Of a stretch of 64,000 nucleotides of DNA, positions 17,954-26,985 are shown piece after piece. The stretch spans positions 310,001 to 374,000 of the forward strand of contig CALSPC010000003.1 in the NCBI GenBank assembly GCA_943788135.1, given 5' to 3'. The notes beneath the pieces are model-generated. The model did no database searches, had not been told where the DNA came from, and was given only the letters and a program-made list of their open reading frames with translations. The DNA is from an uncultured Paracoccaceae bacterium. Lineage in GTDB: Bacteria; Bacteroidota; Bacteroidia; Flavobacteriales; Flavobacteriaceae. Each line of letters begins with the position of its first letter. Position 1 is the first letter of the stretch. Both the position numbers and the translations under genes were made by a program.

Positions 17954-18037
17954 GCTGAAGTGGTGGAATTGGTAGACACGTTGGACTTAAAATCCAATGT
18001 CCTTTGGGACGTACGGGTTCAAGTCCCGTCTTCAGTA
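17954..18037 (+). tRNA. tRNA-Leu (anticodon TAA), integration target
   Basis: Acceptor GCTGAAG pairs with CTTCAGT (one G-T), anticodon loop CTTAAAA on a TTGGA/TCCAA stem, long variable arm GTCCTTTGGGAC typical of leucine, T-arm GGGTTCAAGTCCC, discriminator A. Its 3' part is the left boundary of the integrative element: TTCAAGTCCCGTCTTCAGTAC recurs with two differences at 26220-26240. The gene remains whole after insertion. Confidence 0.95.
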
Positions 18038-18038
18038 C
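18018..18038 (+). repeat. attL, left copy of attachment direct repeat
   Basis: TTCAAGTCCCGTCTTCAGTAC, the tRNA-Leu T-arm and acceptor 3' strand. It matches 26220-26240 at 19 of 21 positions. Confidence 0.85.
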
Positions 18039-18044
18039 GATAAG

Positions 18045-18085
18045 AATCCGTAATTACTTTATTTATAGAGTATTACGGATTTTTT
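18045..18085 (+). terminator. Element-borne terminator after tRNA-Leu
   Basis: AATCCGTAAT / ATTACGGATT, a perfect 10-bp stem with a 17-base loop followed by TTTT, lies just inside attL. It probably ends the tRNA operon now that the host terminator has been moved 8.2 kb away (see 26246-26282). Confidence 0.7.
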
Positions 18086-18093
18086 AGTTTAAT

Positions 18094-18116
18094 ATTTGTA
18101 CGAATTTTGTACGAAT
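18094..18116 (+). repeat. Candidate integrase arm-type site, left end
   Basis: ATTTGTACGAATTTTGTACGAAT contains two copies of TTGTACGAAT(T) spaced 11 bases apart, about one helical turn. The same 23 bases occur without mismatch at 26088-26110, in the same orientation, near the other end of the element. Integrase or excisionase binding is inferred from position and symmetry. Confidence 0.65.
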
Positions 18117-18312
18117 TTACTATTTTAAGCATTAATTTATAGTCGTTATTAGCTTATTGTTTCTTTTGATTTCAATCAATATTTAAATCGCTCTATTCAC
18201 AACCAAAGGCTTTTTTTAAAGTGAAGTTTTCGTCTAAAAGGTTGAGTGTGTTTCTGAATTACCGTTATCATCTATTACAGTTATTTCAAATTTTCGAGGC
18301 TCTTCGCTTGTT
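18117..18312. other. Left-end region with an out-of-frame coding remnant
   Basis: No complete gene. On the minus strand, codons down to a TAG at 18234-18236 encode RTSEEPRKFEITVIDDNGN, which looks like real protein and continues the 70-aa gene if one A is removed from the run CGAAAAATC at its end. The rest of the stretch is AT-rich and shows nothing else I can name. Confidence 0.5.
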
Positions 18313-18525
18313 CTATTGATTTTTCGATTGATAAACGAGGTAAGAATATTTAAGTGCCAAATCTAAAAGTTTAATTTTCTGTGATGCGTTTAGGCTCTCA
18401 TAGTTTAATTCATTTAATATTTTATCCACTAATTCGTACAAGCTACCACGCAATTCCACACCAATTGCAGAACCCCTTTTAGATATTTTGCCAGCTTCTT
18501 TACCACTTTCACTATCAAATCTCAT
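18313..18525 (-). CDS. Hypothetical element protein, probably frameshifted
   Basis: 70 residues, basic N-terminus (SGKEAGKISKRGSA) then two helical stretches (YELVDKILNELN and QKIKLLDLALKYSYLVYQS). It vaguely recalls small DNA-binding proteins of Bacteroidota phages and islands, sometimes called terminase-small-like, but I cannot name it. A one-base shift at the A run near its stop would add about 30 residues ending near 18234 with a plausible beta segment, so the gene is probably broken or frameshifted. It is last of five closely packed minus-strand genes. Confidence 0.55.
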   Translation of the reverse strand: MRFDSESGKEAGKISKRGSAIGVELRGSLYELVDKILNELNYESLNASQKIKLLDLALKYSYLVYQSKNQ

Positions 18526-18540
18526 CGTTATTTTACGTTA

Positions 18541-18945
18541 TTATTTAAAATATTGAGGATTGATTATCCACTGACTGGTTCGCATATCCCAACGAACAGC
18601 GTTTGAAGTTACACGTTGTAAATCGCCTTTATAAACGTGATAGTATTGTTGTAAATCTTCAATAGATGCTAGCAAATTCTGGATAGCTTGTAAGCGCTCA
18701 TTTTCTTCTTCACTTTTAGTGTATTGAATGAACTGCTCTTTATCTACTCTAGTGTAAGGAGAGCCTTCCTTGTCGAAATAAACTTTTGTTTTATTCTCTT
18801 CAAACTCGACTTGAATATTGTATAATTTGTTTAGGTCAATATCAAGTAAACTCAGCACTTTATCTGGTGACAAATTCAGTGATTTGAGGCTTTTATTTTT
18901 ATCTATTATCTTCTTAGTGGTATAAGATATAAAGTCCTCGCTCAA
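18541..18945 (-). CDS. Hypothetical element protein
   Basis: 134 residues, acidic and helical in the centre (EENERLQAIQNLLASIEDLQQYYHVY), ending with an aromatic tail (SQWIINPQYFK). No signal peptide or membrane segment, so cytoplasmic. No family recognised. Its start lies 32 bases inside the preceding 57-aa gene in another frame, which suggests translational coupling within the five-gene cluster. Confidence 0.65.
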   Translation of the reverse strand: MSEDFISYTTKKIIDKNKSLKSLNLSPDKVLSLLDIDLNKLYNIQVEFEENKTKVYFDKEGSPYTRVDKEQFIQYTKSEEENERLQAIQNLLASIEDLQQYYHVYKGDLQRVTSNAVRWDMRTSQWIINPQYFK

Positions 18946-19087
18946 ACGCTTTTAAATCATCAACAGTGACGTGTTTTTTAGCCTCATCTATTGCTATCTG
19001 TAGTAAAGTGATTTTAGCTTCTGCTACCTTTTCAGCTTGCTTTAACCCTTCGTTGCTAATCGTTATTACTTTCTTTTTAAATCCCAT
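18914..19087 (-). CDS. Small hypothetical element protein (57 aa, below track cutoff)
   Basis: ATG at 19087, one base after the stop of the 64-aa gene, reads MGFKKKVITISNEGLKQAEK and ends GLYILYH at a TAA at 18914-18916. It is a basic, helix-rich peptide. The tight spacing upstream and a 32-base overlap with the 134-aa gene downstream support real translation. Function unknown; helical content and position suit a DNA-associated accessory protein. Confidence 0.6.
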   Translation of the reverse strand: MGFKKKVITISNEGLKQAEKVAEAKITLLQIAIDEAKKHVTVDDLKAFERGLYILYH

Positions 19088-19088
19088 A

Positions 19089-19283
19089 TTATCCTTTTAT
19101 TACTTTTACTGTTGATTTACCAGCTCTCTGGTTTATTAAATTTCTAATAATCTGGTTAAATGTGTCCGATGCTCTACTATCGGTTACTTTTCTGAGTGTT
19201 ATTAATTCATCTGTGGTTAGTTTAAGTTTTACCTCAATCATTTCAGGTGTATCGTTGCTAAGTTGTGTATAATATTTACTCAT
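19089..19283 (-). CDS. Ribbon-helix-helix-like small protein
   Basis: 64 residues: MIEVKLKLTTDELITLRKVTD gives a short beta strand followed by a helix, then SRASDTFNQIIRNLINQRAG a second helix, the order expected for ribbon-helix-helix DNA-binding proteins. It overlaps the preceding 43-aa gene by eight bases and its stop is one base from the next start. Could be a relaxosome accessory, a partition factor or an autoregulator of this operon. Confidence 0.6.
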   Translation of the reverse strand: MSKYYTQLSNDTPEMIEVKLKLTTDELITLRKVTDSRASDTFNQIIRNLINQRAGKSTVKVIKG

Positions 19284-19407
19284 TGGATAGGTTTTTTGTT
19301 AGTTCGTGTCGCAAGTAAGACGATAGTTTTAATCGGTTTTGTTTAGCTTTCTCTTGAAGTTTGGCTTTGTCCTTTGTGGACATTCTAATTGGCACTATTT
19401 CATTCAT
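19276..19407 (-). CDS. MobC-like ribbon-helix-helix small protein (43 aa, below track cutoff)
   Basis: ATG at 19407 encodes MNEIVPIRMSTKDKAKLQEK followed by AKQNRLKLSSYLRHEL. A beta strand with IPIRMS-like wording followed by a helix and a second helix around LSSYLR is characteristic of small MobC/Arc-type proteins. It is first gene of the minus-strand five-gene cluster and overlaps the next by eight bases. No relaxase accompanies it, unless the Rep protein at 23.1-24.3 kb does that job. Confidence 0.6.
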   Translation of the reverse strand: MNEIVPIRMSTKDKAKLQEKAKQNRLKLSSYLRHELTKNLSNE

Positions 19408-19488
19408 AGGATTTATTTTAGGTTCGTATATTAATATATAAACGATGTAATATTATTTTGTATTTTTGAATTATACTTTATTTAAAAA

Positions 19489-20010
19489 ATGACAACTATG
19501 GAAGTAATTTTAGGCTTGTTAAACTTTGTATTATTTATTACATTTATCGTAGGACTTGTAAAACCATCTTTAATTTTGAGATGGTCAAGTAAACCAACTC
19601 GTTTAAAAGTTTTTGGATATTGGATTTTAAGCATTATAGTGATAAGCATCTTATCGTTTATGGTTATTGATACAGAGCCAAGCATTGAAGATGAAATTAA
19701 AAAAGAGGTCGCAAAACCAAGCATTGAAGATGAAGTAATTAATTCACTTTCTGAAAACGAAAAAATTGAACTGTTTAATCTAATTTTAAAGGCACAAGAC
19801 CGAGCAGCAAATGAAGCTAAAATAGCTGTTCCTGACGATTATAAATGGGAAGAGAGAGTTGATGTTGAAAGAGAACTTCAAAGTAAATATGAACTTGAGG
19901 TTTATAAAAAGCAATCTTGGTGGATAGAAATTTATGAGGATGTAAAAATCGCAAACAAAATAAGAAATAATATAAGTAAAATTGGAGTTACTTCTGGTTG
20001 GCTCGACTAA
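19489..20010 (+). CDS. Hypothetical membrane protein with cytoplasmic tail
   Basis: 173 residues. Two N-terminal transmembrane helices (about 5-24 and 42-61), then a soluble charged tail that begins with a duplicated PSIEDE motif (PSIEDEIKKEVAK then PSIEDEVINS) and continues as helices rich in Glu and Lys with a WWIEIYEDV segment. No family recognised. First of three plus-strand genes (TM, TM, TPR) on the element, opposite to and divergent from the ribbon-helix-helix cluster. Confidence 0.6.
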   Translation: MTTMEVILGLLNFVLFITFIVGLVKPSLILRWSSKPTRLKVFGYWILSIIVISILSFMVIDTEPSIEDEIKKEVAKPSIEDEVINSLSENEKIELFNLILKAQDRAANEAKIAVPDDYKWEERVDVERELQSKYELEVYKKQSWWIEIYEDVKIANKIRNNISKIGVTSGWLD

Positions 20011-20068
20011 CCAAATAACCACTCAATTAAAAGCATTGATAAAATACTAACAGAAAAAGCAGAAAAGA

Positions 20069-20350
20069 ATGGGAATATTTAAATCAGAATTTGCTATTTG
20101 GTGGTTTTTATTCATTTGCATCATTGCTGCCAAATATATTTTTATTGGAAATCCTAATGATTCCATTTTTGAAACGCCAACATATAAAGATTATGGGGTT
20201 ATATTTAAAATTGCGGCAGTAATCATATGGTCAACTATTTTAGGATCATTATTGAATTGGATTTATAAACTAATATCAAAAAACTACAACCCAAAAGTTC
20301 ATTTATCCATAATTGGTGCTTTAGTTATTGTTCAAATATTTACACTTTAG
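20069..20350 (+). CDS. Hypothetical small membrane protein
   Basis: 93 residues with three predicted transmembrane helices (about 8-26, 47-66 and 79-93) and short charged loops. No signal peptide cleavage site and no recognised family. It follows the 173-aa membrane protein by 58 bases and precedes the TPR gene by 19 bases, so the three probably act together at the inner membrane. Confidence 0.6.
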   Translation: MGIFKSEFAIWWFLFICIIAAKYIFIGNPNDSIFETPTYKDYGVIFKIAAVIIWSTILGSLLNWIYKLISKNYNPKVHLSIIGALVIVQIFTL

Positions 20351-20369
20351 TAATAAAAATTAAAAAGGA

Positions 20370-20771
20370 ATGGGACTATTTGATTGGTTATTTGGAAATG
20401 TTGAAGTTAAAGAAGAAGATTTTTCAAAAGAATTGAAAGATGAAATAAAAAAGCAGGAGATTGAAGACAAGGCATATTCAAAACTCGTAAATAGAAATAT
20501 TAAGGGGACTAAACACGAAAAAGAAGGTAGAGTTGATTTAGCAATTAAATTATATGAAAAGAATATTAATGATAACTTTGATGGCAGTCACCCATATAAC
20601 AGGTTAGCAATCATATATAGAAAGCAAAAAGATTACCATAATGAAATTAGGGTATTGAATAAAGCAATTGAAGTGTTTTCTAATTTAATGTCCACAAGTC
20701 CAAGATTAGATATTGAAACTAAACTTGAGAAGTTCAAAAAAAGATTGGAGAAATCTAAAACTGCCAAATAA
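20370..20771 (+). CDS. TPR-like soluble protein
   Basis: 133 residues starting MGLFDWLFGNVEVKEEDF, a short amphipathic start often seen on membrane-associating proteins, then a helical region with TPR wording: GRVDLAIKLYEKNINDNF, HPYNRLAIIYRKQKDYHNEI and VLNKAIEVFSNL. Probably a scaffold for protein contacts. Third gene of the TM/TM/TPR trio. No enzymatic motif seen. Confidence 0.6.
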   Translation: MGLFDWLFGNVEVKEEDFSKELKDEIKKQEIEDKAYSKLVNRNIKGTKHEKEGRVDLAIKLYEKNINDNFDGSHPYNRLAIIYRKQKDYHNEIRVLNKAIEVFSNLMSTSPRLDIETKLEKFKKRLEKSKTAK

Positions 20772-20833
20772 CTGCCAAGAATATTACTATCTTTACTGTA
20801 AGTTCTATGTAATAAAAACGCTCAAAATTCAAC

Positions 20834-21553
20834 CTATTGATTACATATTTTTTCAATAAAATTTATTTGCTCTTTTACTAAAGATTCCCTAAACTCTAGA
20901 GCTAAATTAAAATCATCACAATAATCGCCTTTATTTAATGAATATTTTGAAACCCCCTTCATATATAATATTGAACTCAAAATCAAAGGGTTTTTAATTT
21001 GTTGTTTTTCGTATTCATTTTGGGCTTGGTTTAATAATTTTAACCCACTTAAATAATCTCTTTTTTGTATTTTAAGTCTTGCTAAATTATATATCGTATC
21101 TATATCATAGGGATTGAGTCCCAATGCAAAATTAAAATCGTTGATTGCTAAATCAAATTCTTCTTGAAATCCATATATCCCTCCCCTGCCGACATAAGCA
21201 ACTATCAAATATGATTTATCTTTTTCATTTTCAACAACTGAAGTATAGTCAATTATTGCATTATTATAATCTCCTAATTGTGTGTAAGCTGATGCTCTAT
21301 TAATAAATGCATCTGTAGATAAATAATTTTGTTTATTGTCTTCTTCAATTGTTACAGTAAAATGAAATATCGCATTTTTAAAATCTCCGCTATTATAAAA
21401 ATCTCTTCCTGTATTAAAAGCATTATTAGATTTAGTTGTTGATGTGAACTTATTTTTTTGTCCCTCATAGTCCCTAAATTCACTGTTTTGTGAATTGACT
21501 GAAAAACAAAAAAACATAATTATTTTGAAGAGGACTATTGTCTTAATTTTCAT
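20834..21553 (-). CDS. Secreted tetratricopeptide repeat protein
   Basis: 239 residues with a signal peptide ending near FSVNSQ and at least four TPR units, e.g. FYNSGDFKNAIFHFTVTIEE, YTQLGDYNNAIIDYTSVVE, FQEEFDLAINDFNFALGLNP and KRDYLSGLKLLNQAQNEY. Probably periplasmic or surface-exposed and used for protein contacts. It faces the TM/TM/TPR trio and is separated from it by 62 bases with no clear terminator. Confidence 0.7.
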   Translation of the reverse strand: MKIKTIVLFKIIMFFCFSVNSQNSEFRDYEGQKNKFTSTTKSNNAFNTGRDFYNSGDFKNAIFHFTVTIEEDNKQNYLSTDAFINRASAYTQLGDYNNAIIDYTSVVENEKDKSYLIVAYVGRGGIYGFQEEFDLAINDFNFALGLNPYDIDTIYNLARLKIQKRDYLSGLKLLNQAQNEYEKQQIKNPLILSSILYMKGVSKYSLNKGDYCDDFNLALEFRESLVKEQINFIEKICNQ

Positions 21554-21613
21554 TAGCTATTTATTTAAAACAAATATAGTAAAACAACTTACAAATCCCA
21601 ATCCAACGGTTCA

Positions 21614-21801
21614 TTAGTCGTATGCAATACGCTTTACTTTACTAATAGGAAGTGGCAAGTCCGTAGCTTCTACTTTATAGTCTCCGTTGTCTGTTTTAAG
21701 CGTGTATTTGAATTTATCTGTTTGGTCTATACTAATAATCGTTTTAACGCTATTTTCGGTTAATTTAAAGGCTACATAGCGGCATTGAATGGTGTCTATT
21801 T
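21614..21801 (-). pseudogene. Truncated copy of the 83-aa element gene
   Basis: Minus-strand codons read DTIQCRYVAFKLTENSVKTI, ISIDQTDKFKYTLKTDNGDY and KVEATDLPLPISKVKR before a TAA at 21614-21616, clearly paralogous to the C-terminal two thirds of the intact gene at 22778-23029. The similarity stops abruptly after TGTCTATTT at about 21801 and there is no start codon. The lipoprotein gene pair begins immediately beyond the break. The copies differ at many positions, so the duplication is not recent. Confidence 0.8.
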
Positions 21802-21840
21802 ATTTTTTTTGATATATTTGAAGTATAAACTAATTTAACT

Positions 21841-22257
21841 ATGAAAAATATACTTTACTTATTTTTAGCAGTAACAATCTTCGCTTGTAGCACAGATAGT
21901 GATGGAAACTCAAATACCTCATCAGTTGAAGGAAGATGGAATTTAACATTGTTAAGTAATAATGGTATAGAAGAAAATTTAAATTACTGTGATTTAGAAA
22001 CGTACATAGAATTAAACAATGACGGTTCTGGTATAGGCTATGTTTATTACACGGATACTCCTGATAATTCTGAAACTTGTGGTTTAGATTTCACATTTGA
22101 TATTACTTTTTCAGAAACTTCTAATAATGTATATTCAATGAATTGGGAGGATAATGACTTTAATGTCACTGGAACTGCTGATGTAAATAATAATATATTA
22201 ACATTCAATTATACTGATGAGGGAGAATATTTTGAAAGTAATTTTACAAAAAACTAA
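21841..22257 (+). CDS. Small lipoprotein, lipocalin-like
   Basis: 138 residues with a lipoprotein signal peptide (lipobox IFAC, Cys16) followed by an acidic Ser/Asp linker (STDSDGNSN) and a region starting VEGRWNLTLLSNNG, typical of lipocalin-like domains in Bacteroidota lipoproteins. Alternating strands continue to the C-terminus. A TATATTTG element at 21813-21820 may be a -7 box. It precedes a similar lipoprotein gene by four bases. Confidence 0.7.
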   Translation: MKNILYLFLAVTIFACSTDSDGNSNTSSVEGRWNLTLLSNNGIEENLNYCDLETYIELNNDGSGIGYVYYTDTPDNSETCGLDFTFDITFSETSNNVYSMNWEDNDFNVTGTADVNNNILTFNYTDEGEYFESNFTKN

Positions 22258-22261
22258 CTAA

Positions 22262-22678
22262 ATGAAAAAACTAATCTTACTCTCCGCCTTTCTCATCTTC
22301 GCTTGTAGTGATAGTTCGGATACGAATGATAACTCTAATCAGACCTTTTTAGAGAGATATGATGGTGTTGTATGGGAAAGCCAAGAAAATGGCACTCGTC
22401 GTGTTTATTTCAATTCACCACCATCAACAGCTATAGATGTAATTGATAATGGACAATATAGTGGCTGTGAACTATCTATTTTTGGGATAGAAGATGAAGC
22501 TGAATATTTATATGAACTATTAGAAAATAATTTTGATAATTTAAGAGTTAAAGTTACAGACTTAATTTTAAACGAATATGTGATATGGAATGTTACTGTA
22601 TCGTCCAATGATAATATATTAACTGTAGATGGTAATAATGTAGCAATCAGGACAGGTTTGCAATTAATTTGCCAATAG
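22262..22678 (+). CDS. Small lipoprotein
   Basis: 138 residues with lipobox IFAC (Cys15) and an acidic linker (SDSSDTNDNSN), then a beta-rich domain (VVWESQENGTRRVYFNSPP, NVTVSSNDNILTVDGNNV) and a C-terminal cysteine. The first 15 residues and the NDNILTVDG wording parallel the preceding lipoprotein (NNNILTFNY), suggesting an old tandem duplication. Acidic residues after Cys are the known surface-export signal for flavobacterial lipoproteins, so both may be displayed outside the cell. Confidence 0.7.
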   Translation: MKKLILLSAFLIFACSDSSDTNDNSNQTFLERYDGVVWESQENGTRRVYFNSPPSTAIDVIDNGQYSGCELSIFGIEDEAEYLYELLENNFDNLRVKVTDLILNEYVIWNVTVSSNDNILTVDGNNVAIRTGLQLICQ

Positions 22679-22777
22679 TATTAAATCATATGAATAAACT
22701 TCTTCATATAGTTAACTTCTTAAACTACTACGGACTATACTTTGACTTGAAAATTAACAGAACTAATTATATTAGAA

Positions 22778-23029
22778 TTAGATTGTTTTAAACTTCTCAA
22801 CTCTACTAATAGGAAGTGGTAATTCTGTAGCTTCTACTTTATAGCTTCCATTGTCCGTTTTAAGACTGTATTTAAGCGGTTCTATTCGTTCTATACTGAT
22901 AATGGTTTTAACGCTGTTTTCAGCTAATTTAAAGGCAACATATCTGCATTGAATGTTGTCTATTTCAGTAGCTTCTAAAAGGTGCTTAAAAAGGCTGTTT
23001 TGAGTGCTTATTGGTGTTGTGTTTTTCAT
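22778..23029 (-). CDS. Hypothetical element protein (83 aa)
   Basis: 83 residues with helical N-terminus (STQNSLFKHLLEATEIDN) and beta-rich remainder (CRYVAFKLAENSVKTIIS, KYSLKTDNGSYKVEATELP). No family known. It lies 75 bases downstream of rep on the same strand, so it is probably co-transcribed and may belong to replication or maintenance of the element. A 5'-truncated paralogue lies at 21614-21801, with two lipoprotein genes between the copies. Confidence 0.65.
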   Translation of the reverse strand: MKNTTPISTQNSLFKHLLEATEIDNIQCRYVAFKLAENSVKTIISIERIEPLKYSLKTDNGSYKVEATELPLPISRVEKFKTI

Positions 23030-23104
23030 TTATTTAACTGTTGGTTTTATTGTTATGCTGGTACACGATTTTGTGTATTATGTACATACATCATAGTAAG
23101 CACA

Positions 23105-24253
23105 TTAGTCATTATTAGGAATTATCTTTTTGGCTTCAATTTCAGTTATAAAATCATCCCATACTTGAGTGTTGTGTTTGTGAGTTTTTTTTACAACTTG
23201 ATTCATTTGAATTACGCTATAAAGACGTGTTCTTAAATTACTGCGACTGCTGGACTTTTTAATGTCTGGATAAAAAGTGTTAACGTAATAAGGGATAGTT
23301 TCCTCAACGTTGACATTCGTTATTTTAGCTTGTTTTAGCATTGCGTAATACTGCCATTTATCAAGTGAAGTCATTCCTTCTGTGTGTTTAATAATTCTGT
23401 AGCCAGTCATATAAGTGCTCATAGGTCTAATGAATACTTGCAGAAACTTTGGATTTAAATTAAGGGTTAGCAAATCTTTTAAAGTCTTGACCTTATAACC
23501 ATAAGTGTCGAAATGTCTACTGTCTTTAATTGTGGTTTCTACACGAAGCAGTCTGTCATCCTCAAAGAAGTTTTTATGTGGAACTTTGTCTCCGTTTAAA
23601 TCAATTAAATCTGAATTTAGATTGTCTTTTAAATAAGTTTCATAAAATGCAGTACTATTATATTTTAATTCAATAGCTTTTGCATAATATTTTAAAAATT
23701 GTTTGGACTTATAAGCATTGCCAACCTTATCTCTTTTACCCCACCATATACCGAGATTGTTATTTTCTCTTTTAGTTCCAACATTAAGTTTTTTACTTGG
23801 AATTGTTAGCTCATTACAAATTCTTACAACTTCTTTTATAGAAGCATCAGCAGAATCTAAATAATAATCTACACAGAAGTCAACATCAACTACAAGAGCA
23901 GCTAAGAACGATTCTTTTGATATCGTGATTAATCCTTCATTATTTATAAATTGGAAACATTGATGAATAGTCTTTCTGTCGATTCCATTAAAATACCTGC
24001 TCTTTAGAGTCTTTGACGAAAAGCCAATAAAAAGCCTTTGTTCTCCAAATTGATTTCTTACTGCGTAGCTGCAACTTATAACAGCATCTGAATTAAAATA
24101 AGTTGTTTTCACGTGCTCGTTCAACACCTCTCCATCATCATTCGTGGTTGTTAATGACCTCATAAATGAGTTGTGCTCTGGGTTTACGATAACTTCGCTT
24201 AATGGAAGGTGTATCCGCAAACTGTCAATTTTTGGTTTTCCTAAAGGAATCAT
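23105..24253 (-). CDS. Phage gpII/gpX-like replication initiation protein
   Basis: 382 residues. The start IDSLRIHLPLSEV, the central FLKYYAKAIEL segment and LLRVETTIKDSRHFDTYG followed by VKTLKDLLTL match the pattern I remember for filamentous-phage gene II/X type rolling-circle initiators (Phage_CRI/Phage_X families). Such proteins nick one strand through a tyrosine; the catalytic tyrosine cannot be assigned with certainty, YY in KYYAK being a candidate. The ATG directly follows the stop of the helix-turn-helix gene, so the two are coupled. The protein could allow extrachromosomal replication after excision. Confidence 0.7.
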   Translation of the reverse strand: MIPLGKPKIDSLRIHLPLSEVIVNPEHNSFMRSLTTTNDDGEVLNEHVKTTYFNSDAVISCSYAVRNQFGEQRLFIGFSSKTLKSRYFNGIDRKTIHQCFQFINNEGLITISKESFLAALVVDVDFCVDYYLDSADASIKEVVRICNELTIPSKKLNVGTKRENNNLGIWWGKRDKVGNAYKSKQFLKYYAKAIELKYNSTAFYETYLKDNLNSDLIDLNGDKVPHKNFFEDDRLLRVETTIKDSRHFDTYGYKVKTLKDLLTLNLNPKFLQVFIRPMSTYMTGYRIIKHTEGMTSLDKWQYYAMLKQAKITNVNVEETIPYYVNTFYPDIKKSSSRSNLRTRLYSVIQMNQVVKKTHKHNTQVWDDFITEIEAKKIIPNND

Positions 24254-24535
24254 TTATCCCTTGTTTAGAATCCCCATTAACTCACTTCGTTTGTAGAGTT
24301 TCTTTCTACCAATTCTAACAAAAGGAATTTCGTTTGCTTTTTCCTTTCGCCACAACGTAGCGTGACTTATACTAAATAGGTTTTGAACTTCTTTTGCAGT
24401 TAGAAAGTCATCGTCAGATTTTCCTTTGGCTAAAATTTCTTTTAGCTTTTTCTCGATAATTACTTCGACTTGATTTGCAAATGCTTGTGATAATTCGGAA
24501 GGAGTGACTCCTTGTACTTGAGTGATTGTGCTCAT
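24254..24535 (-). CDS. Helix-turn-helix (excisionase-like) protein
   Basis: 93 residues. The C-terminal half is a winged-helix HTH_17/Xis-type domain: LTAKEVQNLFSISHATLWRK then IPFVRIGRKKLYKRSELMGIL. The N-terminal half is a helix (ELSQAFANQVEVIIEKKLKEIL). Similar proteins serve as excisionases or as regulators of rep in Bacteroidota elements. It sits directly before rep (no gap) and 302 bases from the integrase, with a structured intergenic region upstream. Confidence 0.8.
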   Translation of the reverse strand: MSTITQVQGVTPSELSQAFANQVEVIIEKKLKEILAKGKSDDDFLTAKEVQNLFSISHATLWRKEKANEIPFVRIGRKKLYKRSELMGILNKG

Positions 24536-24836
24536 TTAATTAAAAAATTTAAGTTAATAATTAAAAGAGTACTCGCTAAGTTTTCTATATTTGTAATTGT
24601 ATTTGACCTCAGAAATTAAATACTTTTACAATTAAGAGTTGCTTTTGCGAGTGACTCTTTTTTCTTTTTATGTTATACAATATTACTGCATATCAATACT
24701 TTGTGCAATAGGCAAAAATCGTGATTAATTAACATCAAGTAGGTTTTATCTTACAGTCATATGATTCAATTATAGTGTTTAAAACTTTTTGTGAAAGTTT
24801 TCGCAATCAAGTAAACTTGAGTCCTCAAACTGTCTT
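24536..24836. other. Structured intergenic region between integrase and rep operon
   Basis: No ORF, but several inverted repeats. The main one pairs AAAAGAGT-A-CTCGC (24563-24576) with GCGAG-TG-ACTCTTTT (24647-24661), 13 pairs around an inner imperfect stem AATTGTATTT / AAATAC...AATT (24595-24633). Two smaller perfect stems, AAAACTTT/AAAGTTTT (24781-24801) and TCAAGT/ACTTGA (24807-24820), lie near the integrase stop. Candidates: rep control RNA, replication origin, or terminators. TATATTTG at 24586-24593 could start a short plus-strand transcript. Confidence 0.5.
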
Positions 24837-26060
24837 TTACATATATTTTTCCCATTCGCTAAAATCAGGTCTTGCTTCACGAACATAGTTCATTAACATT
24901 TCCTTGCTTTTGTGTCCACTTATTTTTCTAATTTCTGCTTCATCAACACCCATCTCCATATAGTAAGTGCAAAAGGTTCTTCTAAAAATGTGAGAAGCTA
25001 TATACTCGTATTTAGGTCTTGTTTTTTGAACGTGACGCATTACTTGTTTCCCATTTACACTAACTTTCTCTTTTAATTTCCAGTCTATTAAGTCTTCTAT
25101 TTTAGCTTTTTCTCCAAGTGTTTTTAGGTGGTTGTTTAGTTTTTGAATAGATATCTTATATGGGAGTTCTTCTGACTCATATAATTTCTTAACTCTTTTT
25201 AGTGCTGGTATTCTCATAGCTTGACCGACCTTACTTTGGTTAAAATCAATTACAAGACTTCCGCTCTTATCATATTTGAAGGAGTCTTTAGTAAGTTCAA
25301 GTAATTCACTTCCTCTTTGTGCAGTATTAACCCCAATAATTAGCCATTTACGAGCATTTATTAAGTGTTTTTCTGTTAGCTCTAAGTTTTCTATTCTTTC
25401 TATCTCATCTTTAGTTAATGTGATAATCTTCTTTGTTTTAAATTTAGATGCTTTTGTTTGCTTGTATTTTTTCCAATAAATGTAGTCGTTAGGAAATTGA
25501 ATTTTTGGAGTTGCTTCTCTACAAACTGTTTTAATGTCTGCTATTATTCCATTGGCTGTATTTATGCCATATTTTTGCTCTTTCATCAACCATAATTTAA
25601 ACTTATCTAATTCATCTAAAGTTAAATCTGTCATTTCTAAATGAGAGTCATAGTTGTTTACTATAGTAATTAATTGTTTAAGGTTTTTTATTCTGCGAAT
25701 TGAGTTATCTTGAAATTCGCATTGTTCGATTTTGTTGTTTACCCAATCAATTAATAATGGCTTAGTTTCCTCTTTGTTGTTGAAGAACTTATTACATTTT
25801 TTATGCATCCACTCTTTGTTTGGAATAAAGTTTTCGCCTTTAGATAGAAATTCTTTAGTAATATAATCAATACACTTATTTATTGCGTAGTTGGTGTCAG
25901 TGCCAATTGTATTTTTGTTATGGTCTTTTTTTGTAACTATAAATTTAGTTTTAAAGTGGAGTTGAATTTCTCCTTGAGTCACATCTTTTTTGTAGTGTCT
26001 TAACTGTATTGACAATTGAGCCTTGTCTTTATTGCTTCTATATACTGCTTTGAGTTTCAT
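24837..26060 (-). CDS. Tyrosine-type site-specific integrase
   Basis: 407 residues with the usual Bacteroidota layout: N-terminal arm-binding domain (about 1-90), core-binding SAM-like domain (100-200) and catalytic domain. Catalytic residues are visible: Arg249 (NTAQRGSELLEL), His357-x-x-Arg360 (SHIFRRTFCTYY), His383 (SGHKSKEMLMNYV) and nucleophile Tyr392. All are present, so the enzyme appears intact. The gene ends the element on its right side and reads inward; candidate arm sites (26088-26110) lie 28 bases before its start, so integrase binding could repress its own promoter. Confidence 0.95.
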   Translation of the reverse strand: MKLKAVYRSNKDKAQLSIQLRHYKKDVTQGEIQLHFKTKFIVTKKDHNKNTIGTDTNYAINKCIDYITKEFLSKGENFIPNKEWMHKKCNKFFNNKEETKPLLIDWVNNKIEQCEFQDNSIRRIKNLKQLITIVNNYDSHLEMTDLTLDELDKFKLWLMKEQKYGINTANGIIADIKTVCREATPKIQFPNDYIYWKKYKQTKASKFKTKKIITLTKDEIERIENLELTEKHLINARKWLIIGVNTAQRGSELLELTKDSFKYDKSGSLVIDFNQSKVGQAMRIPALKRVKKLYESEELPYKISIQKLNNHLKTLGEKAKIEDLIDWKLKEKVSVNGKQVMRHVQKTRPKYEYIASHIFRRTFCTYYMEMGVDEAEIRKISGHKSKEMLMNYVREARPDFSEWEKYM

Positions 26061-26087
26061 TCATTGCAAATATACTGTTTTGTATTA

Positions 26088-26110
26088 ATTTGTACGAATT
26101 TTGTACGAAT
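26088..26110 (+). repeat. Candidate integrase arm-type site, right end
   Basis: Perfect 23-base copy of 18094-18116 (two 11-base units of TTGTACGAATT type), located between the integrase start and attR. Same orientation as the left copy. Confidence 0.65.
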
Positions 26111-26219
26111 AATTAACATAATTTGACACAATATGAAATCTAATGAAATTTAATATTTTATTTTTAACCTGTTAATTACTGATTAATTCAGTGTTTAGTA
26201 GTTTCTTAGTGTTTAGGGA

Positions 26220-26240
26220 TTCAACTACCGTCTTCAGTAC
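26220..26240 (+). repeat. attR, right copy of attachment direct repeat
   Basis: TTCAACTACCGTCTTCAGTAC; differs from the tRNA-Leu copy at two positions, and the last 13 bases (CCGTCTTCAGTAC) are identical. Crossover is therefore likely within the 13-base core. Confidence 0.85.
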
Positions 26241-26245
26241 ACAAC

Positions 26246-26282
26246 GGGATAAATCTTCTTTTTTAGATTTATCCCTTTTTTT
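26246..26282 (+). terminator. Probable original tRNA-Leu terminator, displaced
   Basis: Perfect 11-bp stem GGGATAAATCT / AGATTTATCCC followed by TTTTTTT, five bases beyond attR. Before the 8.2-kb element arrived it would have directly followed tRNA-Leu. It also lies inside the recombinase remnant's reading frame. Confidence 0.7.
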
Positions 26283-26604
26283 ATTTTTTCGATTTACTCT
26301 GTTAAAACGGGCTATTTTGTGCAAAATGGGGTTAATATCAGCGGTTCGAACTTTTTTATTTTCAAATTGAAAATTTTCAGGAAATATCGAACCAATTAGC
26401 CTTCTTTTATTGTCTAAATCACTTTTAATGTATTGATTTTCAATACTTTCAAGTCCTTTTAGACCGTTTTTGTACAACTGAAAAACTTCTTGTTTTTTCT
26501 CCAACTGTTTTTCTTTTTCTCTTAGCTCATCTATAAGGTTTTGGCACCTCATTTTGGCTTTTTGATATTCCTCTTTTGAAAGATCACCATCAATGTCTAT
26601 TGCT

Positions 26605-26985
26605 CCACAAAAACGGATGCTGAGCTCCATGTCGCCTACCATCGTCGTGAACAATGGGCAACTTAAAATGGTATTAGGTTCGCCAGGTGGTTCAACAATT
26701 ATTACGTCCGTTATTCAAAACATTTTAAACGTGTTAGAGTACGATATGACCATGCAAGAAGCAGTTTCTGCTCCACGGTTTCATCACCAATGGTTGCCCG
26801 ATAGTATAAAAGTTGAAACGTCATTTGATACGCTTAACTTTCCATCACTTAAGAGATTAGGCTATAATATTGATCAGAGTAACTCTCCTATAATTGGAAA
26901 AGTCGATGCTATTTTGGTTCTGCCTGATGGAACTTTAGAAGGCGGTGCAGATCCTAGAGGCGATGATAGCGCAGTGGGGTTTTAG
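26605..26985 (+). pseudogene. Gamma-glutamyltransferase C-terminal fragment
   Basis: The plus-strand codons from IAPQKRMLSSMSPTIV through VLGSPGGSTIITSVIQNIL, AVSAPRFHHQWLPDSIKVE and GGADPRGDDSAVGF match the last ~125 residues of GGT, including the oxyanion GGS. The N-terminal three quarters, with the autoprocessing catalytic threonine, are absent; the break falls at about 26600 where the recombinase remnant begins on the other strand. A complete enzyme has about 570 residues, so this is a dead remnant. The C-terminus itself is intact. Confidence 0.88.

Follow-up and report, generated by a model that had tools for sequence, protein, structure and literature searches.

An 8.2-kb integrative element in tRNA-Leu(UAA): a divergent representative of a widespread Flavobacteriaceae family of small, probably replicating elements

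The window, the whole 64,000-nt stretch of DNA analysed here, contains an inserted segment of 8,202 bp (18039–26240), which lies between a tRNA-Leu(UAA) gene and a copy of the 3′ end of that tRNA. The segment belongs to a widespread family of small integrating elements, within which it is divergent; it probably replicates and may be transferred between cells. Its most likely identity, in our judgement, is that of a helper-mobilised, Rep-replicating element of a Flavobacteriaceae family that targets the 3′ ends of tRNA-Leu genes. The family is widespread but apparently unnamed: no published name was found in the open-access literature, in line with the suggestion of a first-pass annotation of this DNA that the class is not yet named.

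The first-pass annotation reported direct repeats at both ends of the element, and these stand out clearly from background. Specifically, 18018–18038 and 26220–26240 are identical at 19/21 positions (23/27 when extended to 27 nt), and the final 13 nt (CCGTCTTCAGTAC) are exact in both copies, while the next best match to the 21-nt repeat elsewhere in the window is 16/21 and the best match in 20 shuffles of 8.6 kb is 15/21. The proposed search for an empty site, with 18038 joined to 26241, was also successful. In the sister species G206 (locus L037) and G203 (L043), the tRNA-Leu end runs directly into ACAACGGGATAAATC..., the counterpart of the window from 26241 onward, to which it is 96% identical over 386 bp; the junction is uninterrupted, with none of the element genes there. 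The repeat and the junction together define the inserted segment as 18039–26240, and the empty junction points to a fairly recent gain or loss of the element. The G+C content is 29.7% inside the element and 37.6–37.9% in the flanks. The features of a tRNA-targeted integrative element (a tyrosine integrase, a repeat of the tRNA 3′ end, and an empty site in relatives) are all present. Both the element itself and its boundaries are thereby confirmed, and the empty sites, the integrase family and the recurrent layout are likewise established.

The first-pass annotation also needs correcting at the right flank, which is not an ancestral ggt region. It consists of a truncated serine integrase followed by the last quarter of ggt, with the integrase fused to this C-terminal quarter across 26241–26985. 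The full serine integrase of G206 reads into tRNA-Leu, indicating that tRNA-Leu is also used by a serine-integrase element, and the remnant in the window derives from an earlier insertion at the same tRNA. The tRNA-Leu(UAA) gene is an insertion hotspot, being followed by at least five different sequences across the genus.

Table 1. Features of the element and its immediate flanks, in window coordinates
Feature	Position	Strand	Details
tRNA-Leu(UAA), intact, integration target	17954–18038	+	ARAGORN, Rfam tRNA
attL repeat	18018–18038	+	Exact 13-nt core 18026–18038; empty junction in sister genomes
Terminator-like hairpin, left end	18045–18085	+	Fold z −3.9; conserved in G214, G215, G201, G212
Left arm-type site (putative)	18095–18116	+	TTTGTACGAAT twice, 11 bp apart
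s111 gene, broken	18202–18525	−	Three 1-nt deletions relative to intact relatives of 107–114 aa; open fragment 18313–18525
s181 gene, broken	18541–19087	−	1-nt insertion; intact at 181 aa in G201, G047
64-aa protein, ribbon-helix-helix-like by eye	19089–19283	−	95% identical in G201
43-aa NikA-like ribbon-helix-helix protein, mobilization accessory type	19276–19407	−	Pfam PF21983, E=8e-7, above gathering cut-off
Cargo, three ORFs	19489–20771	+	173 aa, 93 aa, 133 aa
Cargo, 239-aa TPR protein	20834–21553	−	Signal peptide by eye
Truncated second copy of s83 gene	21636–21801	−	DNA 83% identical
Cargo, two small lipoproteins	21841–22678	+	First weakly lipocalin-like
s83, 83-aa protein, no assigned function	22778–23029	−	
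Rep-like protein, 382 aa	23105–24253	−	Motif YAK...LLRVE; homology to G126 prophage Rep and L147 Rep
HTH_17 protein, 93 aa, adjoins rep	24254–24535	−	Pfam PF12728; PHROG excisionase/regulator
Long imperfect hairpin between int and HTH	24563–24661	.	Fold −17.3 kcal/mol, z −5.1
Tyrosine integrase, 407 aa	24837–26060	−	Complete catalytic set
Right arm-type site (putative)	26089–26110	+	Identical to left
attR, displaced copy of tRNA-Leu 3′ end	26220–26240	+	
Remnant of large serine integrase, outside element	26241–26599	−	Full-length 535-aa homologue beside tRNA in G206

The integrase (Pfam PF00589, E=2e-13) retains its complete catalytic set, as the first-pass annotation stated, with R249, K277, H357, R360, H383, and Y392 (6/6) found by motif position. 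Matches at E≤1e-20 are present in 56 of 400 family genomes including the window's own, i.e. in 55 of the 399 others; the best identity among these relatives is ~35%, and the window integrase occupies the longest branch of the relative set. An HTH_17 gene lies downstream of the integrase on the same strand in 23 of the 24 relative loci that were read. Eight of the 24 reach tRNA-Leu in att configuration (six UAA, two CAA), a count that leaves out L143 because its tRNA points the wrong way. In all eight tRNA-Leu loci, the tRNA-end repeat lies just outside the integrase, and the elements measure 5.5–9.6 kb. L140, from another genus, occupies the same mutS-tRNAGly-tRNALeu(UAA) site and carries a Rep and its own paired arm repeats. 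The homologue search at tRNA-Leu in other flavobacteria that had been proposed at first pass finds relatives: across many Flavobacteriaceae genera, elements with comparable boundaries repeat the order tRNA-Leu, cargo, Rep, HTH_17, integrase. The window element shares this layout, with a homologous integrase, HTH_17 downstream, Rep next, a tRNA-Leu att site, and paired arm repeats. Within this integrase family, one tRNA-Leu(CAA) element encodes an Eco57I-type restriction-modification protein (L150, 3756–7067).

A 23-nt repeat containing both TTTGTACGAAT copies is set in from the left end by 57 bp and from the right end by ~130 bp. The 22-nt arm pattern occurs at only six places in 23 genomes, all of them ends of this element family, namely both ends of the window element and left ends in G201 (two), G214, and G047; the pattern reversed, as a control, occurs nowhere in the same 23 genomes. 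The L140 element has the same paired design with a different 11-nt unit (TAGTCAGC...). The paired 11-bp repeats look like arm sites to which the integrase would bind. The hairpin between the integrase and HTH_17 genes is a candidate replication origin or terminator.

The HTH/phage-type Rep pair named by the first-pass annotation is confirmed for HTH_17, and the Rep is identified through its relatives only. The window Rep has no significant match in Pfam, NCBIfam or PHROGs, shows weak profile similarity but no match above the cut-off to Pfam Rep_trans (PF02486), and has no matches in direct searches of phages, plasmids, IMG/VR and GTDB contigs. Eight of the 24 loci carry one homologous group of rolling-circle-like Rep proteins with the motif Y.K...R.E. 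The window Rep belongs to a second, rarer group, which it has in common with the tRNA-Leu(UAA) element L147 and a PhiCjT23-like prophage of G126. Specifically, an iterated HMM started from the L147 Rep reaches the G126 prophage Rep (1e-6) and then the window Rep (1e-15), and in BLAST the nearest Rep comes from a PhiCjT23-like prophage, where it adjoins the capsid genes. The G126 prophage itself (L033, G126:C1:3588000–3607999) is a PhiCjT23/phi18:4-like ssDNA prophage. It encodes capsid, virion, and endolysin proteins, and its Rep is unlike the PhiCjT23 Rep by direct search. PhiCjT23 is a temperate ssDNA phage with a Rep reported as rolling-circle type (PMC9719478).

A first profile comparison of Rep with Rep_trans, built on two sequences, did not reach significance, as 11 of 100 shuffles scored equally well. 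With profiles of the larger groups, comparisons of the window Rep group with the first Rep group and with phage Reps beat 60/60 column shuffles, in a modest test with individually weak scores; the phage Rep proteins compared score close to the Pfam Rep_trans cut-off, one of them above it. Because these comparisons beat shuffles but are individually weak, a role of Rep as a rolling-circle initiator is supported, not proven. The predicted Rep structure is of low confidence (pLDDT 36). In L139, an AAA ATPase and a BT4734/primase-like protein take the place of Rep, so the replication modules look exchangeable.

The description of the element as intact is only partly right, because two conserved left-end genes, s111 and s181, are frame-broken by four indels; the att sites and the integrase, HTH and Rep frames are kept. 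An assembly error behind the indels is possible, though long genes nearby are open. Since these left-end genes are broken, the copy may no longer be fully mobile. In G047 (JAQCDS010000002.1), from another genus, tRNA-Leu(CAA) is followed by the same paired arm repeat and by intact s109 and s181, and the 64-aa gene sits at the contig edge. A terminase small subunit was considered for s111 and dropped (no supporting family match; AlphaFold model pLDDT 64). Small ribbon-helix-helix-like proteins had also been noted at first pass; the 43-aa protein is of this type by Pfam, and the 64-aa protein resembles it by eye. Among the three cargo ORFs at 19489–20771, the 93-aa product has membrane-like segments by eye and the 133-aa product a weak TPR match; a defence-system identity for the cargo was tried and drew weak matches only. 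Leader and signal-peptide DNA is near-identical before otherwise different lipoprotein genes at 21802–21890, L042 4533–4618, and L078 9938–10039, as if lipoprotein cargo were exchanged behind a fixed leader between elements.

Within the genus, the integrase is absent from the other 17 genomes, which leaves a single genome in which the complete element is known. Partial copies take several forms: G214 and G215 retain only ~80–90 bp of the left end at the tRNA, and in G201 two left ends lie apart from the tRNA. The left ends in G201 and G212 (L042 2860–2905 and 11730–11765; L048 7769–7730) follow a conserved GTTTCGAAAA...CTCAAT.GGGTGTAC rather than tRNA-Leu, possibly another attachment site.

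The same genome contains a second element, of 3,941 bp, at G000:C3 about 286484–290424 (L078 7484–11424). It is flanked on either side by a perfect 43-nt copy of the tRNA-Ala(GGC) 5′ half and carries its own integrase, its own end repeat, an s111 homologue, and lipoproteins. In the sister genome G203 the same integrase (98%) occurs together with other lipoproteins, and the stretches read in G204 and G206 have one intact tRNA-Ala copy and no such integrase. The two elements of G000 share lipoprotein leader sequences, suggesting cargo exchange.

It is well supported that the integrase inserts the element at tRNA-Leu. Recombination would take place between a short core sequence at the T-arm/acceptor end of tRNA-Leu(UAA) and the copy on the element, leaving the tRNA intact, and the paired 11-bp arm sites at both ends probably guide the integrase. 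We infer the later steps from the protein families involved, namely excision with the HTH protein, rolling-circle copying, and helper-dependent transfer. In particular, the HTH_17 protein is probably an excisionase or regulator, excision would release an 8,202-bp circle, and Rep probably nicks this circle and starts rolling-circle replication. Because the element is without transfer machinery, movement between cells would need a helper. This would most likely be a conjugative system, for which Rep would serve as a MobT-like relaxase, assisted by the NikA-like protein as an accessory factor.

This gene content bears on how the element is classified. The genes and sites of an integration/excision module of its own, as expected of an IME, are present. 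No canonical relaxase was found in the scan of the element ORFs, nor was an oriT or a helper identified, and Rep and the NikA-like protein are the candidates for mobilization; no mating-pair formation genes, as expected of an ICE, are among the ORFs scanned. No family match in the element corresponds to packaging or capsid-redirecting genes (terS, capsid) of the PICI-like kind, and the capsid gene that is absent here is present in the G126 relative. The scan agrees with the first-pass finding of no standard relaxase, conjugation or phage structural gene. The accompanying proposal of a replicating, mobilisable or satellite element is compatible with all evidence. The element is not a lone oddity, the family being widespread.

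Given the Rep relative beside capsid genes, the element could instead be a phage satellite, replicated by Rep and packaged perhaps as 8.2-kb circular ssDNA by a PhiCjT23-like helper phage. Its size is close to the 7.6-kb genome of such a helper, the int-HTH-rep layout resembles that of satellites, and a satellite of an ssDNA phage, pDolos, is already known (PMC11389934). However, the element yielded no gene for capsid, packaging or phage interference, s111 matches none of the terminase small subunit families, and a common Rep can reflect module exchange. We regard this reading as unlikely; as an alternative, satellite function for ssDNA phages is still live but weaker than helper-dependent transfer. 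It is improbable that the window element and L147 form a lineage that shares its initiator with ssDNA double jelly-roll phages and is packaged as their ssDNA satellites after excision.

The broken s111 and s181, the duplicated and truncated s83 copy, and the sister genomes that keep only left-end remnants would be consistent with decay, leaving a degenerate island that retains only integrase and Rep as a domesticated carrier of lipoprotein and TPR cargo. This is doubtful, in that integrase, HTH and Rep have uninterrupted reading frames, both att sites are well preserved, and sister genomes have an empty junction. The small size and the lack of a canonical relaxase or oriT among the findings could also fit a plain integrating plasmid that spreads by transformation or generalised transduction without helper transfer, but the presence of a NikA-like accessory protein, together with the frequent double role of Rep_trans-type proteins as relaxases (PMC5704250), makes such a plasmid a rather improbable explanation.

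The family has a bearing beyond this genome. Numerous bacterial islands encode an integrase yet show no obvious means of moving, and the Flavobacteriaceae family is a compact, recurrent case with one target gene and a conserved Int-HTH core. Rep modules and cargo both look exchangeable in the family, the Eco57I-type restriction-modification protein of one member being an example of the cargo. The link of one Rep group to ssDNA lipid-containing phages raises the question of whether such elements replicate, and perhaps travel, as single-stranded circles.

Several known systems resemble the element in part. Streptococcal IMEs, e.g. IMESag-rpsI (PMC5704250), likewise combine a tyrosine integrase, a rolling-circle-type Rep and variable cargo with no mating machinery, and Rep_trans proteins that double as relaxases are documented in IMEs (PMC5704250). 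In contrast to these MobT/Rep_trans elements, the window element belongs to another phylum, its Rep lies outside Pfam Rep_trans by direct search, its site is tRNA-Leu rather than a protein gene, and its mobilization is putative. NBU1 and MTnPi4 are Bacteroidetes IMEs at tRNA-Leu (PMC5704250). The window element shares with them the phylum, a tyrosine integrase, and the use of the 3′ end of tRNA-Leu. NBU1 encodes a mobilization protein of the canonical kind, whereas none was found in the window element, which has a phage-like Rep instead. Among Flavobacteriales, the 10K genomic island of Riemerella anatipestifer, for which excision was shown experimentally (PMC6764341), is also an island of ~10 kb at a tRNA gene with a tyrosine integrase. 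It differs in its Arg-tRNA target and 53-bp repeat, and the likeness rests on site and integrase, not on gene content. Tycheposons are small marine islands associated with tRNA genes, in which tyrosine recombinases accompany mixed cargo, and they resemble the element by general description, in another phylum. They have been listed among proposed marine satellites (PMC11389934). PhiCjT23-like phages carry capsid genes and integrate at dif via XerC/XerD (PMC9719478), whereas the window element has no capsid genes and has its own integrase for tRNA-Leu; what it shares with PhiCjT23-like ssDNA prophages is a similar size and a Rep homologous to that of the G126 prophage.
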